Shown one piece after another: positions 1 through 17,418 of a stretch of 20,412 nt of DNA. A program made the translations under genes and the position numbers. The notes beneath the pieces are model-generated. The model was not told the origin of the DNA. It made no database searches and was given only the letters and a program-made list of their open reading frames with translations. Location of the stretch: positions 1 to 20,412 of the IMG/VR virus record IMGVR_UViG_3300002835_010349; one strand, given 5' to 3'. Every line of letters begins with the position of its first letter. Within the stretch, counting starts at the first letter, position 1. Source of the stretch: a virus.

Positions 1-479
1 TCTTGTTCTACAAGATCTACTCGCTTGCCAAACTCGTTAAAGTTGTTCTTGATACCATTAACATCTAATGTTACTGAGTCAAGAGATTTTGTTACTGCTG
101 TTACCTTCTCATTAAGAGATTTGATAGTTGCAGCAAGATCGCCAAAGGCATTAGTAAGAGAAGTATTAATTTCTGAAACTGCCTTGGCAACTTCTTCTTT
201 AACGTCTGCAATAGATTTTTCTACCACATTCTCTACTTCAACTGCTGCTTTTGCAACAGAAGAATCTGCACTAGCATTATCTGATTTAGCCATAGCAAGT
301 TCTTCAACTGCTACTACTTCTTCAGCGACTACAGCGGTTTCTGTTGCTTCTGCAACAATCTTTTCTGCTTCTGCAACAATTTCTGTTGCTTCTGCTACTA
401 CCTCTGTTGCCTGTGCCTCTGGAGCAACCTGTGCATTTTCAACTGCAGTTTCTACAACTGCTTCGGTTGATTCTGTCAT
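1..479 (-). CDS. Probable nested scaffold protein, in-frame internal start (partial)
   Basis: Inside the protease gene and in the same frame, codon 254 is an ATG preceded by TAAGGAGGT with a 7-base spacer. This is the best ribosome binding site in the window, stronger than that of the parent gene. The product would begin MTESTEAVVETAV and contain at least 159 residues to the window edge. It has a low-complexity Ala/Val/Glu stretch with repeated VAEATE units, then a segment with regular hydrophobic spacing (about 68-159 of this product) suggesting coiled coil. Known phages such as lambda (C/Nu3) make the scaffold from an in-frame start inside the protease gene, and both the position and composition fit. 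Translation from this site is inferred, not shown. Confidence 0.68.
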   Translation of the reverse strand, partial: MTESTEAVVETAVENAQVAPEAQATEVVAEATEIVAEAEKIVAEATETAVVAEEVVAVEELAMAKSDNASADSSVAKAAVEVENVVEKSIADVKEEVAKAVSEINTSLTNAFGDLAATIKSLNEKVTAVTKSLDSVTLDVNGIKNNFNEFGKRVDLVEQ

Positions 480-1238
480 TGGATTTACCTCCTTAGTAAT
501 CTTAATTGTATTAATGCCTTTAGCACTATCAACTAAGAATTTTATCATTTCTGTATTATCTTTATCATTCTTTTCTATAAACCCGATATTTTGCATTTTG
601 TTTCCAGTTACTGGACTTGTTGCTGAATCTAACTCTGATACCATAACAATATTGTTTTCTGAATCCCAGAATACGTTTTCAATTTCTGCTTTTGATAGGT
701 ATCCGCTAACAACATTTTGACCGTTTACCTTTTCAATAGATAAAATATTTGCAAATTGATTTGCTGGATTATCCACAAGAGAAAGTTCATGTAGTTCGTA
801 ATTTTTAATTACACGAATTGTCTTATCAATTTTTGCATCATATGCGTCATCCCAAGTCTTAATATTTCCACCAATTGAAAAACCAGTGTAAGTACCATCT
901 AAAATTTTTTCCCAAGCATCTTGTGCACCCTTAGAAACATAGGCAGATACATAGACTCCGCTATAAAACTTTTTATCATTTGGATCAAAATACTTATCTT
1001 CTTTAAATGAAACAATCTTTCCAACAGCAGTTGGCTGATGCATTTCACGAAGATTACCACGGAAATTCTTAAAAGCCTCTATACTAGATTCTGTCGTTAC
1101 GATGTCGCCTTGACGATCAACGTTATCAAGCGTGGCAAAGCCAGACACCATACGGCGTTCAACATCTACTTTTCCAATTGGCATTGAAAGGCGAACATTG
1201 TCACCTTTAGTTTCCCAATGAGCCTTATTTGTTAACAT
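1..1238 (-). CDS. Prohead serine protease, XkdF-like, fused to a scaffold-like C-terminus (partial)
   Basis: The gene runs off the left edge; 412 codons are visible. Residues 1-170 look like an XkdF/HK97-type prohead protease, which cleaves scaffold and capsid proteins during head maturation. A 'GFATLDNVDRQGD' segment (33-45) is followed by a likely catalytic His67 (EMHQP), Ser121 (GFSIGG) and an 'ELHELSLVDNPANQF' segment (148-162) that supplies the acidic residue. This spacing is close to the His65/Ser114/Glu148 triad of the HK97 protease. From residue 254 the protein becomes Ala/Val/Glu-rich and then probably coiled coil (about 320-412), as expected of a scaffold or delta domain. The ATG at 1238 has no Shine-Dalgarno sequence, but an extended -10 box ends 9 bases upstream, which suggests a leaderless or nearly leaderless message. 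The portal gene lies just upstream (40-base gap). The family call is from motifs, not a search. Confidence 0.88.
   Translation of the reverse strand, partial: MLTNKAHWETKGDNVRLSMPIGKVDVERRMVSGFATLDNVDRQGDIVTTESSIEAFKNFRGNLREMHQPTAVGKIVSFKEDKYFDPNDKKFYSGVYVSAYVSKGAQDAWEKILDGTYTGFSIGGNIKTWDDAYDAKIDKTIRVIKNYELHELSLVDNPANQFANILSIEKVNGQNVVSGYLSKAEIENVFWDSENNIVMVSELDSATSPVTGNKMQNIGFIEKNDKDNTEMIKFLVDSAKGINTIKITKEVNPMTESTEAVVETAVENAQVAPEAQATEVVAEATEIVAEAEKIVAEATETAVVAEEVVAVEELAMAKSDNASADSSVAKAAVEVENVVEKSIADVKEEVAKAVSEINTSLTNAFGDLAATIKSLNEKVTAVTKSLDSVTLDVNGIKNNFNEFGKRVDLVEQ
335..415 (-). repeat. Short degenerate coding repeat (VAEATE units)
   Basis: Degenerate copies of a unit reading roughly 'tctgttgcttctgcaac' on the plus strand encode VAEATEIVAEAEKIVAEATE-like units in the protease/scaffold polypeptide. 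The repeat is a low-complexity Ala/Glu/Val tract, probably a flexible or helical linker, and not a mobile or regulatory repeat. Confidence 0.6.
487..495 (-). promoter_or_regulatory. Strong internal Shine-Dalgarno (TAAGGAGGT) in the protease gene
   Basis: Read on the minus strand the sequence is TAAGGAGGT, then AAATCCA, then ATG at 479. The match to the 16S anti-Shine-Dalgarno is nearly complete and the spacing is ideal. It encodes protease residues T-K-E-V, so it is embedded in coding sequence. It is the main evidence for a separately translated scaffold. Confidence 0.75.
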
Positions 1239-1278: not shown

Positions 1279-2886
1279 CTATTGAGATGCTCTACCTTCA
1301 CCCTGTGGATTGCGGCCAGCAATAGTTGTTGAAGAGTCAGAATTATTATTTGTTCTTTCTGAATCTCTTTCACGAGTTCCCGCCAAATTTGCTCTAGCAT
1401 CGGTTGCCTGTCTTGGGGACATAACAAATGGATCATCTCCATCTGCTCTTTGTGGCAAATCCAACTTTTCACGAGCCTCATTTGGAGTCATAACCTGAGT
1501 CTTTACATATCTTTCAATAATTTGAGATTGTGCAATTTCATCGGTTAGGGTTAGTTCATTAAACTTAAGTTCAAGAATATCTGTTTTTTCTCTAACAATT
1601 TTATTAACTACCTTTTCTAAATGCCTTTGTGCTGGACGAGATACCTGCTCTTTAAAGGTACGATCTTGAGAAAGTGCTGCTGCAATTCCTGCAGAGTCTG
1701 CACCACCCAGTTTAGAGATAGGCACTTGATGGGCAATTAGGATATCATCACGATTTTGTTTACGATATTCTTTAAACGAACCATCTTGAATGCCATTCTC
1801 AATTGGTTCCATCTTAAACTCAACCTTATTTCCGTCTGTATCTCCAGGAAGTGGGATATAAAGAGTTCTGTGTGATTGAGCCTTTAAGCCAGTTTGCAAA
1901 AATCTAAACATCTTATCTTCAGCATCACCTGATAGTTTTGCACCTTTTAAAGTTACTACATATCTTGGAACTGCCTTATTTTCAAAATAGTCAATATTGT
2001 ATTGAGAGGCTAACTGATCTCCAATTAGAGATGGCATTGCTGCAATAATATCTGGAATGCCATAAAATGTGTTTAAAGGTGAGTATTCTTTTAAATGAAT
2101 AATTTCATTTGGTCTTGGATCTGTGCCCATTGGATTTGGATTTTTTGCTCCAAAGTTTCTGAAATAAACTACTTTTTGACCAATAATCTGAATAAATCCA
2201 TCACGTAGACGACGTACACGAACGGTTGTTGCTGGTATATGTCCAACATAGCCAATATCTCCAGCCACGGTTCTACCTACTTCAATAAATCCATTACCAG
2301 TTGCCTGAAGGTCTGTGTAAACCTTTTCCATAGTTTTTGTAAAACTATCGTCATCATTTAAACTTTCTAACCAATCACGTAGTTGAATCTTGGCTCTTTC
2401 AATACGATTACGAGCACGATCAACTGCTGCTTGATCATCATTCATTTCAAACCTTAGCATTGTTCTATCTGAAATATCAAAACGGTATCCAAGGCCAACA
2501 ACATTTTCTACCTTGGCATCAATTGCAGCATGATTAGCAAATGATGTATCATAAAAATTTGCCAACTCATACATATTGTATGGGGGAGTAATTACATCAA
2601 ATAGTCCATAGCCATTCCTATATACCGTGCCAGGATTTATTTGTTTTGATTCTGCATCTACTCCAGAGGGCGTAACATTTGCTGCATTTAAATATGCTTG
2701 ATTTGTTTCTGGGTTAATAGATTTTGATAAATTGCGGTTTGTTCTACGACGAAAATTTTGGTCTAAACCAGAATAATCTTTTAAATCATCCCAACTTTTG
2801 TTAAATGGATCTTGATTTTTAAAAGGATTATCTTCTCTATTTTGTGTATTAAGCCCTACACGAATATACTCTTCTTTGTCACTCAT
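1279..2886 (-). CDS. Phage portal protein, PBSX type
   Basis: The 535-residue protein fits a portal, the dodecameric ring at the capsid vertex that joins head to tail and is the channel for DNA packaging. Evidence is the segment around residues 90-133 ('YGLFDVITPPYNMYELANF', then 'NHAAIDAKVENVVGLGYRF'), which is typical of PBSX/HK97-like portals. A later 'HLKEYSPLNTFYGIPD' block, followed by 'YNIDYFENKAVPRYVV', is the core portal signature. The length is normal and the C-terminal 60 residues are polar and disordered-looking. The ATG lies inside the last codons of the preceding gene (8-base overlap), with AAAGGA about 9 bases upstream, so translation is probably coupled. The prohead protease follows, as in many tailed phages. 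No terminase gene lies between this gene and the tail genes. Confidence 0.92.
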   Translation of the reverse strand: MSDKEEYIRVGLNTQNREDNPFKNQDPFNKSWDDLKDYSGLDQNFRRRTNRNLSKSINPETNQAYLNAANVTPSGVDAESKQINPGTVYRNGYGLFDVITPPYNMYELANFYDTSFANHAAIDAKVENVVGLGYRFDISDRTMLRFEMNDDQAAVDRARNRIERAKIQLRDWLESLNDDDSFTKTMEKVYTDLQATGNGFIEVGRTVAGDIGYVGHIPATTVRVRRLRDGFIQIIGQKVVYFRNFGAKNPNPMGTDPRPNEIIHLKEYSPLNTFYGIPDIIAAMPSLIGDQLASQYNIDYFENKAVPRYVVTLKGAKLSGDAEDKMFRFLQTGLKAQSHRTLYIPLPGDTDGNKVEFKMEPIENGIQDGSFKEYRKQNRDDILIAHQVPISKLGGADSAGIAAALSQDRTFKEQVSRPAQRHLEKVVNKIVREKTDILELKFNELTLTDEIAQSQIIERYVKTQVMTPNEAREKLDLPQRADGDDPFVMSPRQATDARANLAGTRERDSERTNNNSDSSTTIAGRNPQGEGRASQ

Positions 2887-6792: not shown

Positions 6793-8823
6793 CTAATATA
6801 ATTTAATTTCGCAAGCGTCTGTAGAACAGTACTTTTCAGATTCAGCGTCAAGATTATCCTTGCCGTCATAAATAGCAGACCAATCAATTTTGCCTATAGT
6901 TCCTACATAAGAATTATACTCTTCTCTAGTAATTTGAGTATATGGTTGTTGTGGATACGTTTTATTACCCATTGGCAAAAATGATACTGCCTTTAATTGA
7001 CCCTCATACATGTGAAGGGCAGGAGCGATATGTTTTGACTCTTCTTCTTTATCAAATGAAAGAGTTACAGAAACCCCATTGTCAGACCAATATTTTTGAG
7101 CAGTTGCTGCCAAACCAATTTTTTCAAAAAGACTTACATCTTTTTCAGAACGAGGATGTCCAGATGCTACTGGGAAATATACTACTGAAGTGTTTGCTGA
7201 TACAAGATCTGCTTCAATTTTATACCCTGCTGCTTTAAATAAATGCACCATTGGATCAGTATTACCAAACCTGATAGCACGTAAATAAAATGATCCTCCT
7301 GGACCCCAATGAACTCCAGGGGTAGCACCAGAAAGCAATGAAACAGATCCTGAAGGTTTTACAGTAGTTACACGAATTGATTCACGAACACATAACCACT
7401 CTGAATATGAATGATCATATTGACGAATTTTTTTATACCCCTCGTCCATCCATTGACGAACTGCTGGCATTCCCTTAGTATCTGCAAAAGATGCAATACC
7501 AGTTAGAGATGTTCCAATACGACGATTTCTCTGCATAATGCCATTTGTATTTTGCCAGTGTGTTGGCATTAATGTTACGGTTTTTCCATATAGATAAGCA
7601 AACTTTAATGTACGCAAAAAGTCTTCTTTATCTTCGTGACGATTTAAGTGAACCTCTACGAGTGTGCATAGTTCATAGGACTCTAATGGTTGTTCAGCAC
7701 AAGGATTAAAACCCATAACACGAGCATCCTTATAGTCTGGGGCATCTGCAAGTCTTCCATATTCCCTTGCCACATCTAACCAAATAAATCCTGGCTCTCC
7801 ATTGTCTGAAATTAAATCTACATAATCCTCATACCTTGTTCCAACTTGTGCTGAAATAGAGTTATTAGACATCCAAGCCCAACCAGGATTTTCTGAATCA
7901 AATGAGTTACGATCTGGAAAAACTTCTGCATTTTTTAAATTAATAAAATCCTTATCTTCAGCACTACCCAAGGCAAGTGTGGCAGAACGACGAACGTTTC
8001 CAGATACAACACATGTACCAATAAGGTTTACAATATCTACTATTGCACGAGAATCAAGGGTTTCTCCTGCTCTACCGCCAATTACAGTATTTATCTTGTT
8101 ATGTAATGCTATAAGTGGTGCTGGACCGCTAGCAACCCCGCCAAAGCCTTTTATTGGGGCACCTAGGGGTCGGATAAGGTCATAGTTAAACTTTTGTATA
8201 GCCTGATTAGGTCTTAAATAAGAGTTTAAAAGCATTCTAACTGAATCAACCCATCCTTCACGGGTATCTGGGATATCCCACACATTTTCTGGTTCTGTTG
8301 GAGTATAGATAGGCATTTCTTTGTCTTGACCAACGGTATCAAACCCTACACCAATACCCAGCATTAAAGCATCCATTACCCATGCAAATAAAGCACCTGG
8401 ATCATTGCGATCAATATCACGAGTAGACACCATTGCACAGTTTTGTAAGGAGGCAGAATTACGCTTCTCCATAGTCATAGGTGTTCCAAATGCCCATAAA
8501 CCACGACCTGGTGGAGTCCACTTTAAATTAAACATACGGTCATAGGCTTCCTGAGCAGACTTTTGAGCCTTGTTGTCATTCCAGGGTAATCTATTATCTT
8601 TAGCGTGGTTCTTTTGTACTGAGTACATTCCTTCAATTACCCGCTTACAAACTTCATGCCATCTTTCTTTTGTACCATCTTCTTTCATACGAGAGTATGT
8701 ACGTATAAAGGTAATCTCACCTAATGAATTAGAGCCTGCATCTGTAAAGCCAAATGGCGCCTGAATCTCAATATACTTGCTTACAAATTCATCTGATAAA
8801 CGAAAAGAAAATACCTCTGACAT
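6793..8823 (-). CDS. nrdJ: Class II (adenosylcobalamin-dependent) ribonucleoside-triphosphate reductase, monomeric type
   Basis: Reduces ribonucleoside triphosphates to deoxy forms for phage DNA synthesis, using coenzyme B12 to generate a thiyl radical without oxygen. The 676-residue protein matches the monomeric Lactobacillus leichmannii type (739 residues there). The active-site block 'GFNPCAEQPLESYELC' gives Asn373, Cys375 (thiyl), Glu377 and Cys386. The Cys375-Cys386 spacing of 11 equals that of Cys408-Cys419 in the model enzyme. Cys129 (SLQNCAM) is the partner redox cysteine. The C-terminal pair Cys666/Cys671 (CSTDAC) has the spacing of the swinging Cys731/Cys736 pair, so all catalytic cysteines are present and the gene looks functional. 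It has its own promoter and a roughly 55-base leader, but only a weak ribosome binding site. It sits between the modification cassette and the tail/portal genes. Confidence 0.95.
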   Translation of the reverse strand: MSEVFSFRLSDEFVSKYIEIQAPFGFTDAGSNSLGEITFIRTYSRMKEDGTKERWHEVCKRVIEGMYSVQKNHAKDNRLPWNDNKAQKSAQEAYDRMFNLKWTPPGRGLWAFGTPMTMEKRNSASLQNCAMVSTRDIDRNDPGALFAWVMDALMLGIGVGFDTVGQDKEMPIYTPTEPENVWDIPDTREGWVDSVRMLLNSYLRPNQAIQKFNYDLIRPLGAPIKGFGGVASGPAPLIALHNKINTVIGGRAGETLDSRAIVDIVNLIGTCVVSGNVRRSATLALGSAEDKDFINLKNAEVFPDRNSFDSENPGWAWMSNNSISAQVGTRYEDYVDLISDNGEPGFIWLDVAREYGRLADAPDYKDARVMGFNPCAEQPLESYELCTLVEVHLNRHEDKEDFLRTLKFAYLYGKTVTLMPTHWQNTNGIMQRNRRIGTSLTGIASFADTKGMPAVRQWMDEGYKKIRQYDHSYSEWLCVRESIRVTTVKPSGSVSLLSGATPGVHWGPGGSFYLRAIRFGNTDPMVHLFKAAGYKIEADLVSANTSVVYFPVASGHPRSEKDVSLFEKIGLAATAQKYWSDNGVSVTLSFDKEEESKHIAPALHMYEGQLKAVSFLPMGNKTYPQQPYTQITREEYNSYVGTIGKIDWSAIYDGKDNLDAESEKYCSTDACEIKLY

Positions 8824-9658: not shown

Positions 9659-10354
9659 TTAAGAACTTTTTCGCATTTGCATATTATTATGTATCCAGTG
9701 TCCAGGAATCATATATTTAAATTTATTTTTTACTAAATGTGCGGTATGGTAATAGGGAGCAGCAGATGGAAAAATAATTATACTTCCTGCTTTAGGTTTT
9801 ACAGCAAAATCAATTGAATTATTTTTTAATGCTATATCATAATCTAGGTCTGGAGATGGTTGCATACCAACTTCTTTATATTCAGATAAAGTAAATGATA
9901 CCTCTCCACCATCAAAATCATCATTTAAATAAATATTAAATGAATATCTTAAAGTTATATCTCCATCGTTTTGATCAAAATGAGAACCCATGCCAACTCC
10001 AGCATTATATTTTTTTATGTTAAAAACAGGAAATAAGTTTGGTTCATCTGAGTCACCCATTGCAGCACCGTAGTCTTTACAAACTTCGTAAAAAGATTCA
10101 AATATTGTATTATAAACAAAAAGCATTTTAGACTTATATGGCTCTTTCATATTTTGTATTTGATTTAAGTCATATGTTTTTGTAAATCCATATATAAAAT
10201 TTTTATCATTTGATGCAGTCCAATCTAGCCATGAAGAAACTCCGTCAGACTTTTCCATTTCATCTAACTCATCAATTGTTTTCATTAGATTATCAAAATC
10301 TTTAATGCAGTCTTCATAGTAGTAAACTTTTTGTTCTAAAATTTGTTTTTTCAT
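9659..10354 (-). CDS. 2-Oxoglutarate/Fe(II)-dependent dioxygenase, prolyl-4-hydroxylase-like fold
   Basis: A 231-residue protein with the iron facial triad of the double-stranded beta-helix oxygenases: His125-x-Asp127 (SHFDQND) and a distal His203 (YYHTAH). The conserved 'YLNDDFDGGEVSF' strand lies between them (142-154), and KPKAG is followed by IIIFPS before the distal histidine. Where most relatives use Arg to bind 2-oxoglutarate, a Lys (213, FKYMIPGHW) sits at the expected place. The enzyme would couple oxidative decarboxylation of 2-oxoglutarate to hydroxylation of a protein or small-molecule substrate. AAGGAG precedes the ATG, and the gene lies 16 bases after the previous oxygenase. The N-terminal 60 residues differ from the neighbours, suggesting a different substrate. 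Confidence 0.87.
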   Translation of the reverse strand: MKKQILEQKVYYYEDCIKDFDNLMKTIDELDEMEKSDGVSSWLDWTASNDKNFIYGFTKTYDLNQIQNMKEPYKSKMLFVYNTIFESFYEVCKDYGAAMGDSDEPNLFPVFNIKKYNAGVGMGSHFDQNDGDITLRYSFNIYLNDDFDGGEVSFTLSEYKEVGMQPSPDLDYDIALKNNSIDFAVKPKAGSIIIFPSAAPYYHTAHLVKNKFKYMIPGHWIHNNMQMRKSS

Positions 10355-10370
10355 TTTTTACAAGTTCTCC

Positions 10371-11030
10371 TTAGTATCTATTTTTCTCATAATGACCTAT
10401 TTCTTTTACAAAACCAACAAGAACATACCTTATTGGCCCTTCAGCAACATGCTTTACTCCGTGCTCATATTTTTCATTACCTGGGAAAACTAACATCTCT
10501 CCTGGCTTAGGCCTTAACTCTAAGTTTAAGTTTTTAAAAAAAAGTTCTCCTTCATTATAGTCATCGTTAAGATATAGTATGGTTGCATATTGAATAGATG
10601 GATCAGTGCGTTGATCGGTATGGGATTTTAATTCAACTCCTGGTTGCATTCTTTGAATAGTAGCAAAACCACTTAAATGCAGGTTTGGGTCAGACTGAAC
10701 AACTAAATTATTAAATTTTTCATACATAGGGTGGTACTCACTATAGCCTGAAATATTTAGATTTTTATCAGCCCAATTTTGAGTAATTTCAAATTTTCCT
10801 TCAGCAACAAGATTTTCAACATCATCTCTACCAAATTTTTCCATACAAAATTTTGGCAAGTTTGATAGATATTCTACTTCCCAATCTGCTTGAGATGCTT
10901 CATTAATTTTACTCCAAATAAAGTCTGTTTCTTGTTTTGATAAAATATTTTTAACTAGTAACACTTCATCTGTAATTTCTTCAAACTCATAATTATTTTT
11001 TACTAATTGTTTTTTAAAATTTTCAATCAT
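10371..11030 (-). CDS. 2-Oxoglutarate/Fe(II)-dependent dioxygenase, P4H-like
   Basis: A 219-residue oxygenase with an intact triad: His137-x-Asp139 (SHTDQ), His190 (YEHGV) and Arg201 (IRYVL) for 2-oxoglutarate. The strand 'ILYLNDDYNEGELFF' (151-165) and 'KPGEMLVFPG' (175-184) are typical of the P4Hc superfamily. The start codon lies within the end of the preceding oxygenase gene (8-base overlap) with GAAGAGG just upstream, so translation is coupled. The N-terminal half (about 100 residues) is variable and may set the substrate, which cannot be named. Confidence 0.9.
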   Translation of the reverse strand: MIENFKKQLVKNNYEFEEITDEVLLVKNILSKQETDFIWSKINEASQADWEVEYLSNLPKFCMEKFGRDDVENLVAEGKFEITQNWADKNLNISGYSEYHPMYEKFNNLVVQSDPNLHLSGFATIQRMQPGVELKSHTDQRTDPSIQYATILYLNDDYNEGELFFKNLNLELRPKPGEMLVFPGNEKYEHGVKHVAEGPIRYVLVGFVKEIGHYEKNRY

Positions 11031-11778
11031 TGAAAACCTCTTCAGGTTTATATTTGTTTCCGTTCATATCTATTTTCCAGCCTTGCTTAAGTAATTCTTG
11101 CCACTCTTCTTTTTCAATTTTTTGAGCATCTCTAATTTTTTGCATTTCTTCTGCCCAAGCGTCTCTTGTTTCTTGTGAATAAGCAGATTCTTCTCTATCA
11201 TCCCAAAAAGATCCTATTGTATATCTAATACCTTTAGTAATTAAAGATACTTCATGCATATTGTTAAATCCCCCATCAAAAACAGCAAGCAATCCTGTTT
11301 TTGGTACTATAGATATATCTTGATCTGGAAAGTTTAATACTCCACCTTCAAAATCTGTATTTAAATATAAAAATCCAGCATATCTGCTTCTTGCAAATGG
11401 TCCAGTATTTCCATGCTCATCTGTATTATCTGAATGAATTCTAGCGTATGCCCCTGGTTCCCATTTTTGAGTATGATATCCAATTTTAACAATTGCTGAC
11501 GGATCAAGATCATGCACTGTTGCAATAGCATTAGAAATTCCTTTTTCAATATCAGAAAAAATTGTTGGACTTAGTCCAATATCAATAACTTCTTTATCAT
11601 TGTCCAATGGCAACACTGAAGAATATGATTCATAAAATGATATTGGCATCCAAGAAATACTTCCAACTTCTGCATGTTTATCTAAAACTTTTACAATTTT
11701 TGCAGCAGTGTCCTCATTTATAAAATTTTCATAAACAATAATATCCTTAGTTATTCTTTTTTTATTTTCTAAATTCAT
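11023..11778 (-). CDS. 2-Oxoglutarate/Fe(II)-dependent dioxygenase, P4H-like, with charged C-terminal tail
   Basis: A 251-residue oxygenase: His115-x-Asp117 (RIHSDN), His175 (NMHEV) and Arg185 (GIRYTIGSFW). The segment 'GFLYLNTDFEGGVLNFP' (135-151) carries the usual metal-site strand, with Thr in place of the first Asp of NDD. After the catalytic core a helical, Glu/Lys-rich tail (about 193-251) is unique among the six oxygenases here. The gene overlaps its upstream neighbour by ATGA and its downstream neighbour by 8 bases, so the three are one translationally coupled block. The substrate is unknown. Confidence 0.9.
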   Translation of the reverse strand: MNLENKKRITKDIIVYENFINEDTAAKIVKVLDKHAEVGSISWMPISFYESYSSVLPLDNDKEVIDIGLSPTIFSDIEKGISNAIATVHDLDPSAIVKIGYHTQKWEPGAYARIHSDNTDEHGNTGPFARSRYAGFLYLNTDFEGGVLNFPDQDISIVPKTGLLAVFDGGFNNMHEVSLITKGIRYTIGSFWDDREESAYSQETRDAWAEEMQKIRDAQKIEKEEWQELLKQGWKIDMNGNKYKPEEVFND

Positions 11779-12455
11779 GGTTTTTTATCACCTGTATGCT
11801 CTGTTATTTCCCAAAAAAATGGACAGGTATATCTAATGCCACTTTTTATCTCTGTTACTCCATGGATATATTGCATATCTCCTGGGAAAAAATAAGCAGC
11901 GCCCTTTTTGGGTTTAAACTTAACTCCTTGATTTGGAAAATATAATTCTCCACCTTCATAGTCATCATTTAAATAAAATAAACTTGAAAGATCGTAGTTT
12001 GGAAAATCGTTTGGCTCTCCAGCATCTGGACCTTCATGCAATTCTTTATCTGCATGAGGCATCTGTAGGTGACCTGGTAACCACCTTACAATTGTTGTTC
12101 CTGTTGGCTTAACTTTTACTTTATAAAAATCTTCAACAATTGGTTGTAATTTTTGAAATAGTCCAGCGATAACTGGTGCAATTGTTGGATCATTTTTATC
12201 TAAACTTGGTGTGGTTGCAACTCTGTCTTTCCAAAAATCAGAATCATATACAACTGTTCCATTTTCATTTACATGGCTTTGTGTTACATCCCAGATAGTG
12301 ATAGATTTTGCTGCCTTTTCTAAAAAAGTAATTTCTTCTTGAGTCATAAAATTTTCTAACTCAACAATCATTTCTTTACCATTACCAAAAAATCCTGAAG
12401 GGGTTATTGACCTTGTTCTTTTAACAACTGTTGGGGTATTGTCTATTTTATTCAT
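11775..12455 (-). CDS. 2-Oxoglutarate/Fe(II)-dependent dioxygenase, P4H-like; leaderless start
   Basis: A 226-residue oxygenase with His134-x-Asp136 (PHADKE), His198 (YIHGV) and Arg208 (IRYTCPFFW). 'LFYLNDDYEGGELYFP' (159-174) and 'KPKKGAAYFFPGD' (181-193) complete the core. It is the first gene of a four-oxygenase run. The ATG is six bases past a TGGTATAAT box and has no Shine-Dalgarno sequence, which predicts a leaderless mRNA starting at the ATG. The next gene begins inside its stop codon (ATGA). It is the most canonical P4Hc-like member of the group, but the substrate is not known. Confidence 0.91.
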   Translation of the reverse strand: MNKIDNTPTVVKRTRSITPSGFFGNGKEMIVELENFMTQEEITFLEKAAKSITIWDVTQSHVNENGTVVYDSDFWKDRVATTPSLDKNDPTIAPVIAGLFQKLQPIVEDFYKVKVKPTGTTIVRWLPGHLQMPHADKELHEGPDAGEPNDFPNYDLSSLFYLNDDYEGGELYFPNQGVKFKPKKGAAYFFPGDMQYIHGVTEIKSGIRYTCPFFWEITEHTGDKKP

Positions 12456-12461
12456 ATTAAG

Positions 12462-12470
12462 ATTATACCA
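12462..12470 (-). promoter_or_regulatory. Extended -10 promoter TGGTATAAT, leaderless start for the 12455 gene
   Basis: The minus strand reads TGG-TATAAT, CTTAAT, ATG. The A of the ATG is seven bases past the hexamer, exactly where transcription should begin. It would drive the four oxygenases and the dehydrogenase as one unit independent of the genes upstream. Confidence 0.72.
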
Positions 12471-12513
12471 GAAATATTTTATTTAAATAATAGTTAGTTT
12501 TGTTAATATTTCT
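12470..12513. repeat. 9-base inverted repeat next to the leaderless promoter
   Basis: AGAAATATT (12470-12478) and AATATTTCT (12505-12513) are perfect reverse complements separated by 26 bases. They fill the gap between the end of the 12512 gene and the promoter at 12462-12470. The site could be an operator flanking the promoter or part of an AT-rich terminator. In AT-rich DNA a chance match is also possible. Confidence 0.35.
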
Positions 12514-13231
12514 ATGCCTGTTGCTGCTTTGTATTATCAACTACGCTTAATCTTAAAGTTTTTACCTCGTGACTTCCACGAGACTCTCCTTTTTCATTTA
12601 CGGCATCTCTATACCAATCTGTCCACTTTCCAGATTGATTTATTATTTGTGATGCTGCGCCATAAGATTGGTTTGCTTCATTTCTTTTATTGTCTGGATC
12701 CTGATATTCATTTATTTCAATAGTAGATTCATTTAAAGCACTTAAAGATATTGGAATAATTGTGGCTAATGGAGTTCCAGCCTTTATTAATATTTCTTTA
12801 TTTGCTGACCTTGCTTTAATTGCTAGTGGAAGTGGATTATCCAGAAATGAAGTACTTATTATAGAAGACATTGTCTCAAAGTCATCATTGAAATAGTTAA
12901 CTGGATTAATAGTAAACATGCTTACATTTTGCTCTGTTCTAAAAACTAATCCAGTGTTAAAACTTACACTTCCTTGGCCTCTTCCAGTATAACAAATGTC
13001 CTGACCTTGTAAAAGTTCAATATTGCTTCCAGTTTGATCACTAATACCATTCCAGATGAAACTTATATCTTTTGAACAAGACAAATTCCATCCAACTACA
13101 TTTGCCTGAGTTACTGGAAAACACCTATATGCATGATTTTCTGAAGTTGTACCCATCCAATCTCTTTTTACAGACATTGGTTGAATCTGCATAGTTGACC
13201 AAGGCATTTGTTCAACTGAAATATTAAACAT
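12512..13231 (-). CDS. Phage protein of unknown function (possibly DUF6065-like), second copy of a paralogous pair
   Basis: A 239-residue soluble protein, no signal peptide. The pattern 'CFPVTQANVVGWNL' (37-50), 'DISFIWNG' (55-62), 'SFNTGLVF' (90-97) and 'KAGTPLATIIPISLS' (150-164) resembles a beta-rich family common in aquatic phages. From memory this may be DUF6065, but I could not check. It shares the same ordered landmarks with the 13907-14695 product (GW.L/GY.L, .P.N.F, AGTP..x.P), so the two are probably distant paralogs. Each follows one of the two most similar oxygenase genes. The ATG overlaps the upstream stop by one base (TAATG), so translation is coupled. The catalytic role, if any, is unknown; a partner or substrate-presenting role is a guess. 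Confidence 0.8.
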   Translation of the reverse strand: MFNISVEQMPWSTMQIQPMSVKRDWMGTTSENHAYRCFPVTQANVVGWNLSCSKDISFIWNGISDQTGSNIELLQGQDICYTGRGQGSVSFNTGLVFRTEQNVSMFTINPVNYFNDDFETMSSIISTSFLDNPLPLAIKARSANKEILIKAGTPLATIIPISLSALNESTIEINEYQDPDNKRNEANQSYGAASQIINQSGKWTDWYRDAVNEKGESRGSHEVKTLRLSVVDNTKQQQA

Positions 13232-13896
13232 TATTCATTAGCCCACTTTGGATCATACATATCTGGAGTATGAAATTTTTTGCTGTAATCTAACATAGTA
13301 ACAATAGAATATTTTGTTCCAGAATGTACTGGCATTGCTCTATGTGGGTACATAAAGTTTGATGGAAATATAAATAAGTCTCCAGCATCTGGTTTAACAT
13401 TTAAACCTTGCAGCCTAAAAAATAATTCTCCACCCTCATAGTCATCGTTTACATATGCAACAAGTGAAACGGTACAGTTATAAGAGTATCCATGATCATG
13501 GTGCTCCTGAAAATGCTGTCCTGGACCATATTTAATAAAATTAAATGCTTCCCAATACTTTAAGTTATAAATATTAAACTGTTTGCAATAATCTTGTACT
13601 GCTGGATTTTGAGCATCATAAACATCTTGCCATAATGCTTGAAGATTTAAAGATACCTGACTTGTGTCATTTTCAATATCAGTTTTTTTAAATTTAAAAT
13701 CATTACAATCTCTATAGTTTGGCATTAACTCTTGATAGCCAACGTATGCTGGAAGCCAACTATACCCTTTGTCTTCGCTACCAACTGGTTCAAGATTATC
13801 CTCAAGCCTATTGATAACATCAAATTCTTTTTTAATTACCCCTTTATAACATACTATGCCATTACCAAGGTTAACTTTATCTGTCCATGTTTGCAT
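13231..13896 (-). CDS. 2-Oxoglutarate/Fe(II)-dependent dioxygenase, P4H-like, 'NCTVS' subtype (copy b)
   Basis: A 221-residue oxygenase from the ATG at 13896, which has AAAGGGG six bases upstream. A longer reading from 13956 would overlap the previous gene by 50 bases and lacks a ribosome binding site. The metal site is His132-x-Asp134 (EHHDHG) with distal His185 (YPHRAMPV). The 2-oxoglutarate residue is Lys195 (SGTKYSIV) instead of the usual Arg. It is a close paralog of the 14697-15425 product: both share 'EAFNFxKY', 'YNCTVS', 'NDDYEGG', 'PSN.xY.HA/R' and 'SGTKY'. A ten-base gap follows the upstream unknown-protein gene, and the second unknown-protein gene overlaps it by one base. It is probably a hydroxylase acting on a protein or sugar. 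Confidence 0.9.
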   Translation of the reverse strand: MQTWTDKVNLGNGIVCYKGVIKKEFDVINRLEDNLEPVGSEDKGYSWLPAYVGYQELMPNYRDCNDFKFKKTDIENDTSQVSLNLQALWQDVYDAQNPAVQDYCKQFNIYNLKYWEAFNFIKYGPGQHFQEHHDHGYSYNCTVSLVAYVNDDYEGGELFFRLQGLNVKPDAGDLFIFPSNFMYPHRAMPVHSGTKYSIVTMLDYSKKFHTPDMYDPKWANE

Positions 13897-13906
13897 TTTT
13901 TCCCCT

Positions 13907-14695
13907 TTATTTATATTCTCTTTTAGACCATACTTTATTTTTATAAACACCACCATCTGGCTTACGATAAAAACTCATGTTGTCTATAAGTTTATCATAC
14001 ATCTGTCTTTGGTCTAGACTTTCTATTTTTTGCTCCCAGTTTTCTCTTTTAAAAGGAAGAACCTGTAAGTAGGGTGTTCCCGCTGGCAAAGTTCCTTCCC
14101 AACCTTCTGCAATAAAAAATGGAAATGTTCCAAGTATATGAACCTTGTCAGAATCAACTACTCCAGTTGTATTTAAAAATGGCAGATCAAATCTGTTCAT
14201 TGGAGTCATAAATAATGCACTGTATCCTTCTGGTAGTTCTAGACCCCAATCTGGATACCAGGCGAAATGATCTTTATAAAATCCCCTTGGATGCTCAAAT
14301 TGTGGCATTGCCTGTCTTTTACCACAAAAATCTTTATAATTTGGATCAGATATTTTAACATCAATTATTCCTTTTTCATTTTTAAAAAATGTAAGATCGC
14401 ATGGAGTTTTTAAAACATATCCTGTTGAAAATGCATCTAAAATTGCTGGACATGCTTTCCATGTTGGAATTTTTCCATAATCATCTACAGTTCCTTCTTT
14501 TGGAAAAGGACAAATTTCTTTTGATGCTTTATAGTATTCACCATTTGGCATCTTAGCAAATCTATCTGCATCCTTGTACCAATCTGGAATTACCTTTTGT
14601 GTTGGAGATGGTGCAGAAAAACTTTCTTCATTTGATAATGGCCTGTATGGCTTAAATATAATTATATTTTTAGATATATTAGAGTCTTCAGACAA
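13907..14695 (-). CDS. Phage protein of unknown function, first copy of a paralogous pair (TTG start)
   Basis: A 262-residue soluble protein. Landmarks are 'VIPDWYKDADRF' (35-46), 'KACPAILDAFSTGYVLKTP' (80-98), 'WGLELPEGYSALFMTPMNRF' (150-169), 'LPFLNTTGVVDSD' (171-183) and 'AGTPYLQVLPFKRENW' (205-220). This is a widespread aquatic-phage family without a known role, and it also appears distantly related to the 12512-13231 protein. The TTG start follows the upstream stop by one base, with AGGA about 12 bases upstream inside that gene, suggesting coupling at reduced strength. The consistent pairing with an oxygenase gene suggests the two proteins work together (inference). Confidence 0.82.
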   Translation of the reverse strand: MSEDSNISKNIIIFKPYRPLSNEESFSAPSPTQKVIPDWYKDADRFAKMPNGEYYKASKEICPFPKEGTVDDYGKIPTWKACPAILDAFSTGYVLKTPCDLTFFKNEKGIIDVKISDPNYKDFCGKRQAMPQFEHPRGFYKDHFAWYPDWGLELPEGYSALFMTPMNRFDLPFLNTTGVVDSDKVHILGTFPFFIAEGWEGTLPAGTPYLQVLPFKRENWEQKIESLDQRQMYDKLIDNMSFYRKPDGGVYKNKVWSKREYK

Positions 14696-14696
14696 C

Positions 14697-15425
14697 TTAT
14701 TTATGTCCTAACTCATTAATATCTGTCATTACCACTACACAATATTTTGTTCCTGATTTTATTGGCAACGATGCATGTTCATAAATATAATTTGATGGAC
14801 AAAGAACTATATCTCCAACTTTGGGTTTATAAACAAGGTTATCCATTCTTGGAAACTTTAAGTCTCCACCTTCGTAATCATCATTTATATATACTACTGC
14901 AGAAACTGTACAGTTGTAAACTGGGCCATGATCTGCATGAATATTAAAGTGAGATCCTTCTCCTTCATATTTAACAAAATTAAATGCTTCATAATATACA
15001 ACATTTATTCCCCAATATGAAGCATAATCATCTACACAGTATTTTAATTTTTCATATATTTCTTGATGAAGATCCAATAGTTCTGCATTATCAGCATCTC
15101 TTGATCCAAGATTTTCTTGTTTATATTTAAAATCAACACAGTCTCTTGCTTTTTTAATTGGAGTTTCAGAGTTTGTTACTTTTGCTTCTGACCAATTATA
15201 TTTTTTATTTTTACTTAAATTTGACTCAAGAGTATTTATATACCTTTTAGAGTCTTCTAAAGAAAATGTATTTTTATAAACATTAACACCTAAAGCCAAG
15301 TTTTCAACTACTATGCCATCTTTTAATGACTTTGAGTTAAGTCTATTGCTTGATGTTTCTGATCTATCTTTTGTAAACCAAACATTTGAGTTTTCATCAT
15401 ACTGGGTTTGTTCTTTATAGTTCAT
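14697..15425 (-). CDS. 2-Oxoglutarate/Fe(II)-dependent dioxygenase, P4H-like, 'NCTVS' subtype (copy a)
   Basis: A 242-residue oxygenase with His163-x-Asp165 (NIHADHG), distal His217 (YEHASLP) and Lys227 (SGTKYCVV) where Arg is usual. 'NCTVSAVVYINDDYEGGDL' lies at 171-189. It is the closest paralog of the 13231-13896 enzyme, but has about 30 extra N-terminal residues. AAAGGAG stands 6 bases before the ATG, and the gap to the glycosyltransferase gene is 19 bases. Lys in place of the 2-oxoglutarate Arg occurs in lysyl- and prolyl-hydroxylase-type members of the superfamily, so an active enzyme is likely. The substrate cannot be assigned. Confidence 0.9.
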   Translation of the reverse strand: MNYKEQTQYDENSNVWFTKDRSETSSNRLNSKSLKDGIVVENLALGVNVYKNTFSLEDSKRYINTLESNLSKNKKYNWSEAKVTNSETPIKKARDCVDFKYKQENLGSRDADNAELLDLHQEIYEKLKYCVDDYASYWGINVVYYEAFNFVKYEGEGSHFNIHADHGPVYNCTVSAVVYINDDYEGGDLKFPRMDNLVYKPKVGDIVLCPSNYIYEHASLPIKSGTKYCVVVMTDINELGHK

Positions 15426-16575: not shown

Positions 16576-16603
16576 TTTTAATTACCCCCACTATTTTTAA
16601 TTA
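16574..16603 (-). repeat. 11-base direct repeat in the gap between the two S74 parts
   Basis: TAATTAAAAAT occurs twice on the minus strand (16593-16603 and 16574-16584), 19 bases apart. The first copy contains the in-frame TAA that ends the upstream gene; the second runs into the ATG of the downstream ORF. It may be a short tandem duplication, or matched sequences that assist ribosome re-entry. The pattern is clear but its role is not. Confidence 0.6.
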
Positions 16604-17418
16604 ATGTTTACAACCCTCATTATACTATGCTTAAATCTCTTAGATGAGTAAATGAATCTTGGGAAAGATGGACCAAACGATGGGAAGAATGGTGGAGCGA
16701 AGGCTGGGAAGAACGGGAAGAATGGTGGGAAGAATGGTGGGAAGAATGGTGGGAAGAATGGGAAGAACGGTGGGAAGAACGGTGGGAAGAACGGTGGGAA
16801 GAATGGTGGGGTAGTTACGCTGTTTGAAGCACTTGAGGTTGATGAATTACCATTTGCGTTAGTAGCATAAACTGTATATGTTTGTGAAGTATCTCCTTCT
16901 TGGGTAACGTTAACGCTTGTTGTTCCTGATCCAACAGTAGCACCTTTACCATCTGATGATGCCCAAGTGTAACCAGTAATTGCACTTCCACCATTTGCAG
17001 GGGCAGTCCAAGAGACAGCATCTGAAAGGGCTGAAGTTGTTACGGTTGGTGCAGCAGGAGTTGCTGGCACTGTTGTTGCTGTAATAGAACTAGATGCACT
17101 AGAAGCATCAGAAGTTCCAACTGCGTTTGTTGCTGTTACTGTAAATGTATAGGCGGTATTAGATTGTAATCCTGTTACAGTCAATGGTGATGATGCTCCA
17201 GATGCTGTATAACTACCAGGGGATGAAGTAACTGTAAATGATGTAATTGGTGCACCATTACTTCCACCAGATGAGAATGAAACGCTTGCTGCACCATTAT
17301 TAAATGCACGAGATGTTCCAACATCTGTTGCAGAAACGCTTACTGGTGGATTAGGTTTTCCTGCACCCTGAAATCCAAGGCCTCTTACACCTGCTCCTCG
17401 TCCACCAATAATAGGCAT
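16597..17418 (-). CDS. Fibronectin-III tail protein with a (PPFF)n tract and the catalytic start of an S74 domain
   Basis: A 273-residue putative tail fibre or baseplate protein. After a Gly-rich N-terminus (1-22) come two FnIII-like domains (about 23-116 and 117-203; 'GAPITSFTVTSSPGSYTAS', 'YTFTVTATNAVGTSDAS', then 'SWTAPANGGSAITGY'). Residues 204-249 are almost only Pro and Phe in the order (PPFF)n with PFF interruptions. The end, 'FIYSSKRFKHSI', is the start of an S74 chaperone domain: Ser258 and Lys263 have the same spacing of five as the self-cleavage dyad of endosialidase-type spikes. The rest of that domain is in the next ORF beyond three in-frame stops. AAGGGG precedes the ATG, and the gap to the fibre gene is 11 bases. 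The protein would be anchored in the tail through its N-terminus (inference). Confidence 0.85.
   Translation of the reverse strand: MPIIGGRGAGVRGLGFQGAGKPNPPVSVSATDVGTSRAFNNGAASVSFSSGGSNGAPITSFTVTSSPGSYTASGASSPLTVTGLQSNTAYTFTVTATNAVGTSDASSASSSITATTVPATPAAPTVTTSALSDAVSWTAPANGGSAITGYTWASSDGKGATVGSGTTSVNVTQEGDTSQTYTVYATNANGNSSTSSASNSVTTPPFFPPFFPPFFPPFFPFFPPFFPPFFPPFFPFFPAFAPPFFPSFGPSFPRFIYSSKRFKHSIMRVVNIN
16619..16627 (-). promoter_or_regulatory. Possible -10 box TAGTATAAT before the S74 fragment
   Basis: The hexamer TATAAT is perfect, but the preceding TAG lacks the TGn extension found at the other promoters. It lies inside the coding end of the FnIII gene. If used, RNA would begin near 16612 and carry GTGGGGGT before the ATG at 16575, allowing independent synthesis of the fragment. 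Chance occurrence in AT-rich DNA cannot be excluded. Confidence 0.3.
16660..16809 (-). repeat. 12-base tandem repeat encoding PPFF, with a 45-base higher-order unit
   Basis: The unit CCRCCRTTCTTC-like (plus strand GGTGGGAAGAAY) is repeated in frame and encodes PPFFPPFFPPFF. Two adjacent 45-base units each read (PPFF)3-PFF. The unit nearer the gene start uses mainly CCG at the second proline and the other uses CCA, so the two blocks have expanded or diverged separately. Irregular copies (PAFAPPFFPSFGPSFP) close the tract. Copy number is likely to vary by slippage. Confidence 0.9.

Follow-up and report, generated by a model that had tools for sequence, protein, structure and literature searches.

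The prohead protease gene at one edge of a 20,412-base IMG/VR virus contig raises the question of whether a single reading frame supplies both the maturation protease and, from a second start inside it, the scaffold on which the head is built. The window, meaning the whole stretch of 20,412 bases that was analysed, carries this parent gene on its minus strand and loses its end at position 1. By comparison with relatives, we found a conserved Shine-Dalgarno (SD) site and start codon within the frame, a parent start without an SD, a hairpin just ahead of the nested SD and no separate scaffold gene. We put at about 90% the reading, drawn from sequence, that the frame would give two co-terminal proteins, a 450-aa protease-scaffold fusion from an SD-less and probably leaderless start and a 197-aa scaffold from an SD-led start assisted by the hairpin.

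The parent gene, assigned as prohead protease plus scaffold from the list of open reading frames and profile matches, occupies positions 1 to 1238 (minus strand; codons 1-412) and is open to the window edge. In the near-identical contig L002 (3084-base overlap with the window, 4 mismatches) the same gene closes at 450 aa, and a further contig, L003, overlaps the window over 1235 bases with 0 mismatches. The parent protein scores above the curated cut-offs of two Pfam families, S78_2 (PF14550, 29.4 bits, cut-off 24) and S78 (PF04586, 23.7 bits, cut-off 21), and matches the head maturation protease family phrog_9427 along residues 4-397 (E 6.5e-104); the S49 domain is absent from the Pfam search, which returned S78_2 and S78 only. 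An AlphaFold model of the 450-aa protein (28 rows), of middling quality (mean pLDDT 64, pTM 0.37), is ordered to about residue 240 except for residues 161-184, has a pLDDT below 50 over 243-344 and is helical over 333-418. When the ordered part was submitted to a fold search, it matched T4 gp21 (5jbl) with a Z of 11.9 over 132 residues (rmsd 3.3), which is stronger than the match to the HCMV protease, whose Z of 5.4 is weak by itself. An HK97-type protease was absent among the fold-search matches listed, an absence that proves nothing, and a PDB sequence search gave 6 matches, only to coiled-coil-like stretches. By sequence models and by fold, the parent protease is of the S78 / T4 gp21 / assemblin type.

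Inside this frame, AAGGAGG lies at 494-488 (minus strand; AAGGAGGT extends to 487) and is followed, after 7 nt (480-486), by an in-frame ATG at 479-477, which is codon 254, exactly as the initial annotation had reported. A start here would yield a putative scaffold product (positions 1 to 479, minus strand), the first 159 of whose 197 codons are in the window. The residues up to the nested start read ...KITKEVNP and those after it MTESTEAVVETAVENAQVAPEAQ..., an Ala/Glu-rich sequence, and the change in protein character that had been placed at this codon is upheld by the AlphaFold model, in which a folded protease gives way to a disordered linker and a coiled coil. Since the order of the model ends at about residue 240, ahead of the disordered stretch and the helices, the codon-254 start opens the linker and the coiled coil. 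In most nested products of the cluster representatives described below, an acidic N-terminal region is followed by a coiled-coil-like segment and a conserved tail around TA(F/I/V)(R/K)KSGDLG and (S)xWGGxFL. No Pfam or PHROG family model calls the nested part a scaffold, and its putative role is suggested by its position, its coiled coil and the absence of another candidate.

The composition of the two parts also differs in one dipeptide. Lys-Ser is enriched in the scaffold part (window 3-479, minus strand, and relatives), with 173 occurrences observed against 45 expected from shuffling in 38 cluster representatives, and is not enriched in the protease part (57 observed, 78 expected). In the scaffold part it mostly stands in the context hydrophobic-x-Lys-Ser, which is also present in the first residues of many portals (in the window at 2886-2700, minus strand, FNKSWD and LSKSIN) and hardly present in the capsid protein. 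Judged from sequence, hydrophobic-x-Lys-Ser is a candidate for the cleavage consensus of the protease.

The surrounding gene order leaves the nested product as the scaffold candidate. The portal gene (1279 to 2886, minus strand; Phage_portal, E 2.6e-30) is directly upstream of the parent, and extension of the sequence past position 1, which the initial annotation had proposed as a check, revealed no separate scaffold gene after the protease in L002, in five more relatives or in 14 annotated records. In L002, the major capsid gene begins 28 nt after the 450-aa gene, whose stop the nested start shares, and no scaffold gene lies between the protease and the capsid gene; in the five further relatives, the capsid gene comes next after the protease, with AGGAGGT ahead of it. 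The parent has tblastn matches in 139 deposited phages (Streptomyces 127, Rhodococcus 9, Brevundimonas 2, Alicyclobacillus 1), and a genome scan for relatives gave 2 loci, one in an Actinomycetota MAG and one in a MAG labelled cyanobacterium. We examined the annotated records of 14 of the 139 phages (12 Streptomyces and 2 Rhodococcus phages). All 14 have portal, protease and capsid in this order with the major capsid gene directly downstream of the protease, none contains a scaffold CDS, and the annotation of the protease gene names no function beyond capsid or head maturation protease. An internal SD and start were present near the boundary in all 14, the site in Rhodococcus phage Dorin being a weaker AAGGAG at 11 nt from the internal start. 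In the annotated genes of Comrade, Wakanda and Wofford, this start falls at codons 267, 263 and 258, respectively, and it is a GTG in Comrade and Wakanda.

The retention of the internal SD and ATG in close relatives, likewise suggested as a check, was complete: all 80 loci of the first relatives (69-100% identity) keep AAGGAGGT and the ATG at codon 254, counted as 253 in the one locus that begins at codon 2. A wider set comprised 417 loci, corresponding to 348 distinct genes, after 21 of 438 sequences had been dropped for want of a usable parent gene; the gene finder used here accepts ATG alone as the parent start. Of the 348 distinct genes, 335 have an in-frame start beyond codon 225 that is preceded by an SD of 6 nt or more, and 314 have AAGGAGG or longer. 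Among the 13 genes without the site, 11 are cut off by contig ends; the others are L234, which has AAGGGGGT, and L420, which retains the SD and ATG but has a TAG 6 codons beyond the latter. This TAG may be a sequencing error, a mutation or a recoded stop.

Because loci L086-L205 were retrieved with an exact 21-base piece of the hairpin, counts that include them, as those on the 348 genes and on the spacing between hairpin and SD partly do, lean towards conservation; in the genes obtained by protein search alone, the nested site is present in 261 of 268. Clustering at 75% identity gave 39 clusters, each represented by one gene, and the site occurs in 38 of them, compared with 8.27 expected when synonymous codons are shuffled within each gene. 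As a control, codons 10-225 of the same 39 representatives contained 0 in-frame sites and 2 out of frame. The nested start itself is variable, being ATG in 284, GTG in 47 and TTG in 4 of the 335 genes, and its position drifts from codon 231 to codon 379. The SD is read as AAG GAG GTA in the window clade and as GAA GGA GGT in Wofford, Wakanda and Comrade, and this difference in codon phase between clades implies that the SD itself is retained and that protein constraint is no explanation. Synonymous conservation reaches 0.77-0.97 over the 20 codons before the start versus 0.54-0.73 in codons 4-170, a contrast that was raised in 11 of the 11 clusters with at least 5 members.

The initial annotation saw the nested SD and missed a conserved element upstream of it, a two-tier hairpin within the coding sequence (500 to 538, minus strand; codons 234-247) with the outer stem UCUUAGUUG/CAAUUAAGA around the inner stem UAGUGCU/GGCAUUA. 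Codons 234-247, 249 and 250 show no synonymous variation among 71 distinct sequences wherever they encode the same residue, the mean identical-codon fraction over codons 1-262 being 0.69, and the roughly 17 nucleotide-frozen codons ahead of the SD fold into the hairpin (MFE -17 kcal/mol for 72 nt, z -3.1). In genes located by protein motif alone, the hairpin codons are TTC in 180 of 180, AGT in 178, GGC in 179 and ATT in 179, where the background shares are 22% of Phe, 11% of Ser, 21% of Gly and 64% of Ile codons, respectively. All 76 distinct elements (a count that includes the hairpin-retrieved loci L086-L205) have T as the third base of the codon preceding the right-arm Lys/Glu, whichever of Ile, Ser, Thr, Ala and Val it encodes. 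Pairing of the outer stem is seen in the MFE structure of all 48 distinct elements from protein-search loci carrying the element, and the stem still forms in elements with 3-nt deletions; the distance from the hairpin end to the SD is 5 nt in 68 of the 72 distinct elements measured. Inspection by eye of L321, the one of the 180 genes without the inner-stem letters, showed that its outer stem, with an altered right arm, can still pair in full, UCUUAGUUG/CAACUGGGA.

The window-type hairpin is common to 13 of the 39 clusters, and these have a mean z of -2.38 at the site versus -0.52 elsewhere in the genes (p 9.7e-7, the clusters being related and thus non-independent). In the other 25 clusters, the mean z was -1.11 at the site versus -0.43 elsewhere (p 0.015), and in some other clades a dissimilar hairpin occupies this position. 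A hairpin as a feature of the whole phage group was set aside as weak, given this p of 0.015 and a median rank of 0.50 within the gene for the raw MFE. In a covariation test, 94.9% of cells pair, 2 pairs have substitutions in both partners and the score is attained in 40 of 500 shuffles; the signal is only modest because the left arm hardly varies. An Rfam search returned one chance match only (E 0.25, other strand). We also considered by inspection, and rejected, a sequestration of the SD by the upstream UUCUUAG, which in the fold pairs with the CAAUUAAGA arm, leaving the hairpin clear of the SD. The most likely role of the hairpin would be to aid ribosome loading at the SD or to keep the site open.

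It is possible, if rather unlikely, that the hairpin is instead a site for a protein or nuclease (a repressor, or an RNase III-type processing that would release the scaffold message with its 5′ end stabilised) or acts as a DNA element, for example in packaging, in which case the nested start would still be real. The left arm is almost frozen even at paired positions open to covariation, which fits sequence-specific recognition, and each of 11 contigs examined has exactly one perfect copy of the hairpin sequence, with no second near-perfect copy; against this, the fixed 5-nt distance to the SD (68 of 72) ties the hairpin to scaffold translation, and other clades have unlike hairpins in its place. 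The frozen stretch could also be read as a nested promoter, TTGATA (532-527) and TACAAT (510-505) separated by 16 nt (505 to 532, minus strand), from which the scaffold would have its own mRNA, like UL26.5 of herpes simplex virus. Both hexamers match at 5 of 6 positions, the length of the SD leader fits, and the stretch is invariant in the window clade. In the related clusters, however, the promoter letters are not conserved, a -10 match of at least 5/6 being found in only 14 of 73 distinct elements and 13 lacking TTGATA, while the hairpin persists with its outer stem paired in all 48 protein-search elements; the lack of a second near-perfect copy in the 11 contigs also speaks against a promoter. 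The nested promoter is an improbable cause of the frozen stretch and is kept as a rival. That the SD-like letters are only Lys-Glu-Val codons and that all scaffold is made as a protease fusion, like P2 gpO, is very improbable: of 280 closed genes, 279 encode protease and scaffold in a single frame, the exception being L420, and P2 has a single gene for both functions (PMC8508860), but the SD occurs in different codon phases, the starts vary, and the site is found in 38 of 39 clusters where 8.27 are expected.

The parent start codon (ATG, 1238-1236, minus strand) lacks an SD, as had been claimed, and only 6 of the 348 parents have a 5-nt SD core within 20 nt of the start (1 of 268 in the protein-search set). 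A -10 box, TATAAT with TGC before it, stands at 1253-1248 (minus strand), 9 nt upstream of the parent ATG, and is predicted to be a leaderless promoter. A box matching TATAAT at 5/6 or better lies within 22 nt of the parent ATG in 336 of 348 genes, at 8-10 nt in 292, and is present in 36 of 39 clusters, with a mean of 5.4 matches versus 4.4 in shuffles. Transcripts of M. tuberculosis begin 7-12 bp downstream of the centre of the -10 motif (PMC3898074), and with such spacing, transcription here would begin at or beside the parent ATG. The parent mRNA is thus probably leaderless, as the initial annotation had supposed from the sequence, except that the case is weak in the cluster of L082 (Wofford, Riptide): with a poor -10 box there and a parent start that overlaps the gene before it, coupling, not leaderlessness, is the likely mechanism. 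Roughly one transcript in four or five is leaderless in S. coelicolor and mycobacteria, and such mRNAs initiate robustly in the latter (PMC4895711, PMC4633059); therefore, the parent start need not be weak. A TATAAT also stands 6 nt ahead of the ATG of a second SD-less gene of the window (11775-12455, minus strand), so that leaderless initiation may be widespread in this phage.

In the two-product reading, the full-length 450-aa protease-scaffold fusion would start at the SD-less ATG, probably on a leaderless mRNA from the -10 box 9 nt upstream, and the 197-aa scaffold would start at codon 254 and consist of the acidic disordered linker, the coiled coil and the conserved C-terminal tail only. 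Any mRNA crossing the region would offer the SD to ribosomes and allow scaffold synthesis, the hairpin fixing the 5′ side of the ribosome entry site, and the protease fusion would depend on a transcript starting at its ATG or on coupling to the preceding gene. As both proteins would have the same C-terminal part, they could co-assemble and so draw the protease into the procapsid. We infer that both are translated and that the scaffold is in excess; such a skewed ratio, which the initial annotation had also envisaged, would be better explained by the choice of mRNA, the SD-less start being served by an mRNA beginning there and the SD-led start by every mRNA that crosses it, than by a weakness of leaderless initiation. 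A more tentative suggestion is that the hairpin-SD module and the leaderless parent might set the protease:scaffold ratio through which mRNA is made, as a translational counterpart of UL26/UL26.5.

Other genes of the window drew our attention. Six genes at 9659-15425 (minus strand) have a common YxNDDYEGGELFF-like segment and look like paralogues, which we take to be 2-oxoglutarate/Fe(II) oxygenases, and the 676-aa gene at 6793-8823 (minus strand) presumably encodes a ribonucleotide reductase. The predicted protein of 16597-17418 (minus strand) ends in a long Phe/Pro repeat (PPFFPPFFPPFF...), the part before which we assume to be fibronectin-like.

These results suggest that a large group of viruses related to Streptomyces phages, including the 139 deposited records that match the parent, carries an unannotated scaffold gene. 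They also provide a natural system in which an SD-less and an SD-led start share a frame, together with a conserved hairpin, in phages whose hosts (Streptomyces, Rhodococcus) can be grown. A literature search, mostly outside subscription journals, listed no publication that describes a nested scaffold start for these phages; for small actinophages, fused forms of protease, scaffold and capsid have been described (PMC7302621). Among named phages, members of the Stanwilliamsviridae (Wofford, Wakanda, Riptide, Comrade and others) are about 50-54% identical to the window parent over codons 1-253 and have the same unannotated SD and start at the boundary. They differ in an extra small gene (portal, small gene, protease, capsid), in lacking the window-type hairpin and in the frequent use of GTG as the nested start.

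The analogy with lambda C/Nu3 drawn by the initial annotation holds for the layout, the scaffold occupying the 3′ portion of the protease frame with a common stop and starting at codon 239 of lambda C versus codon 254 here, and fails for the start signals and the type of protease. Lambda C has a strong purine-rich SD, AGAGGAGGAG, and a GTG start, whereas the window parent is SD-less; lambda nu3 has no SD within 12 nt, whereas the nested start of the window is SD-led. The lambda protease is annotated as S49, unlike the S78 / T4 gp21 / herpes fold of the window protease, and with S78_2 and S78 as its only Pfam matches, the window gene would work like C/Nu3 but outside the lambda gpC family. Gene order is also different, gene D standing ahead of the capsid gene in lambda, whereas the capsid gene directly follows the protease in the relatives of the window. 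In lambda itself, C, Nu3 and the portal B are reported to assemble into an initiator complex (PMC3224144). Folding of the 60 nt upstream of lambda nu3 (L440, phage lambda 5072-5131) also gives a strong hairpin, CUUCCGGAU/GUCCGGGAG, which contains the only SD-like letters there, about 15 nt from the ATG.

Phage P2 gpO resembles the window gene in uniting protease and scaffold in one gene, a nested start being absent from the description in the available text of PMC8508860. The herpesvirus UL26/UL26.5 pair is alike in its in-frame nesting, its N-terminal protease and C-terminal scaffold, and a similar fold. The UL26.5 product, reported as abundant in B-capsids, comes from a promoter of its own inside UL26 (PMC2949831), whereas the window gene is best read as having an internal ribosome-binding site. 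The combination of a nested scaffold with a T4 gp21/herpes-type protease fold is relevant to the question of whether the UL26/UL26.5 layout is ancient or has several origins. In summary, the architecture is already known from lambda C/Nu3 and herpes UL26/UL26.5, and what is new here is the arrangement of the start signals and the additional conserved hairpin.
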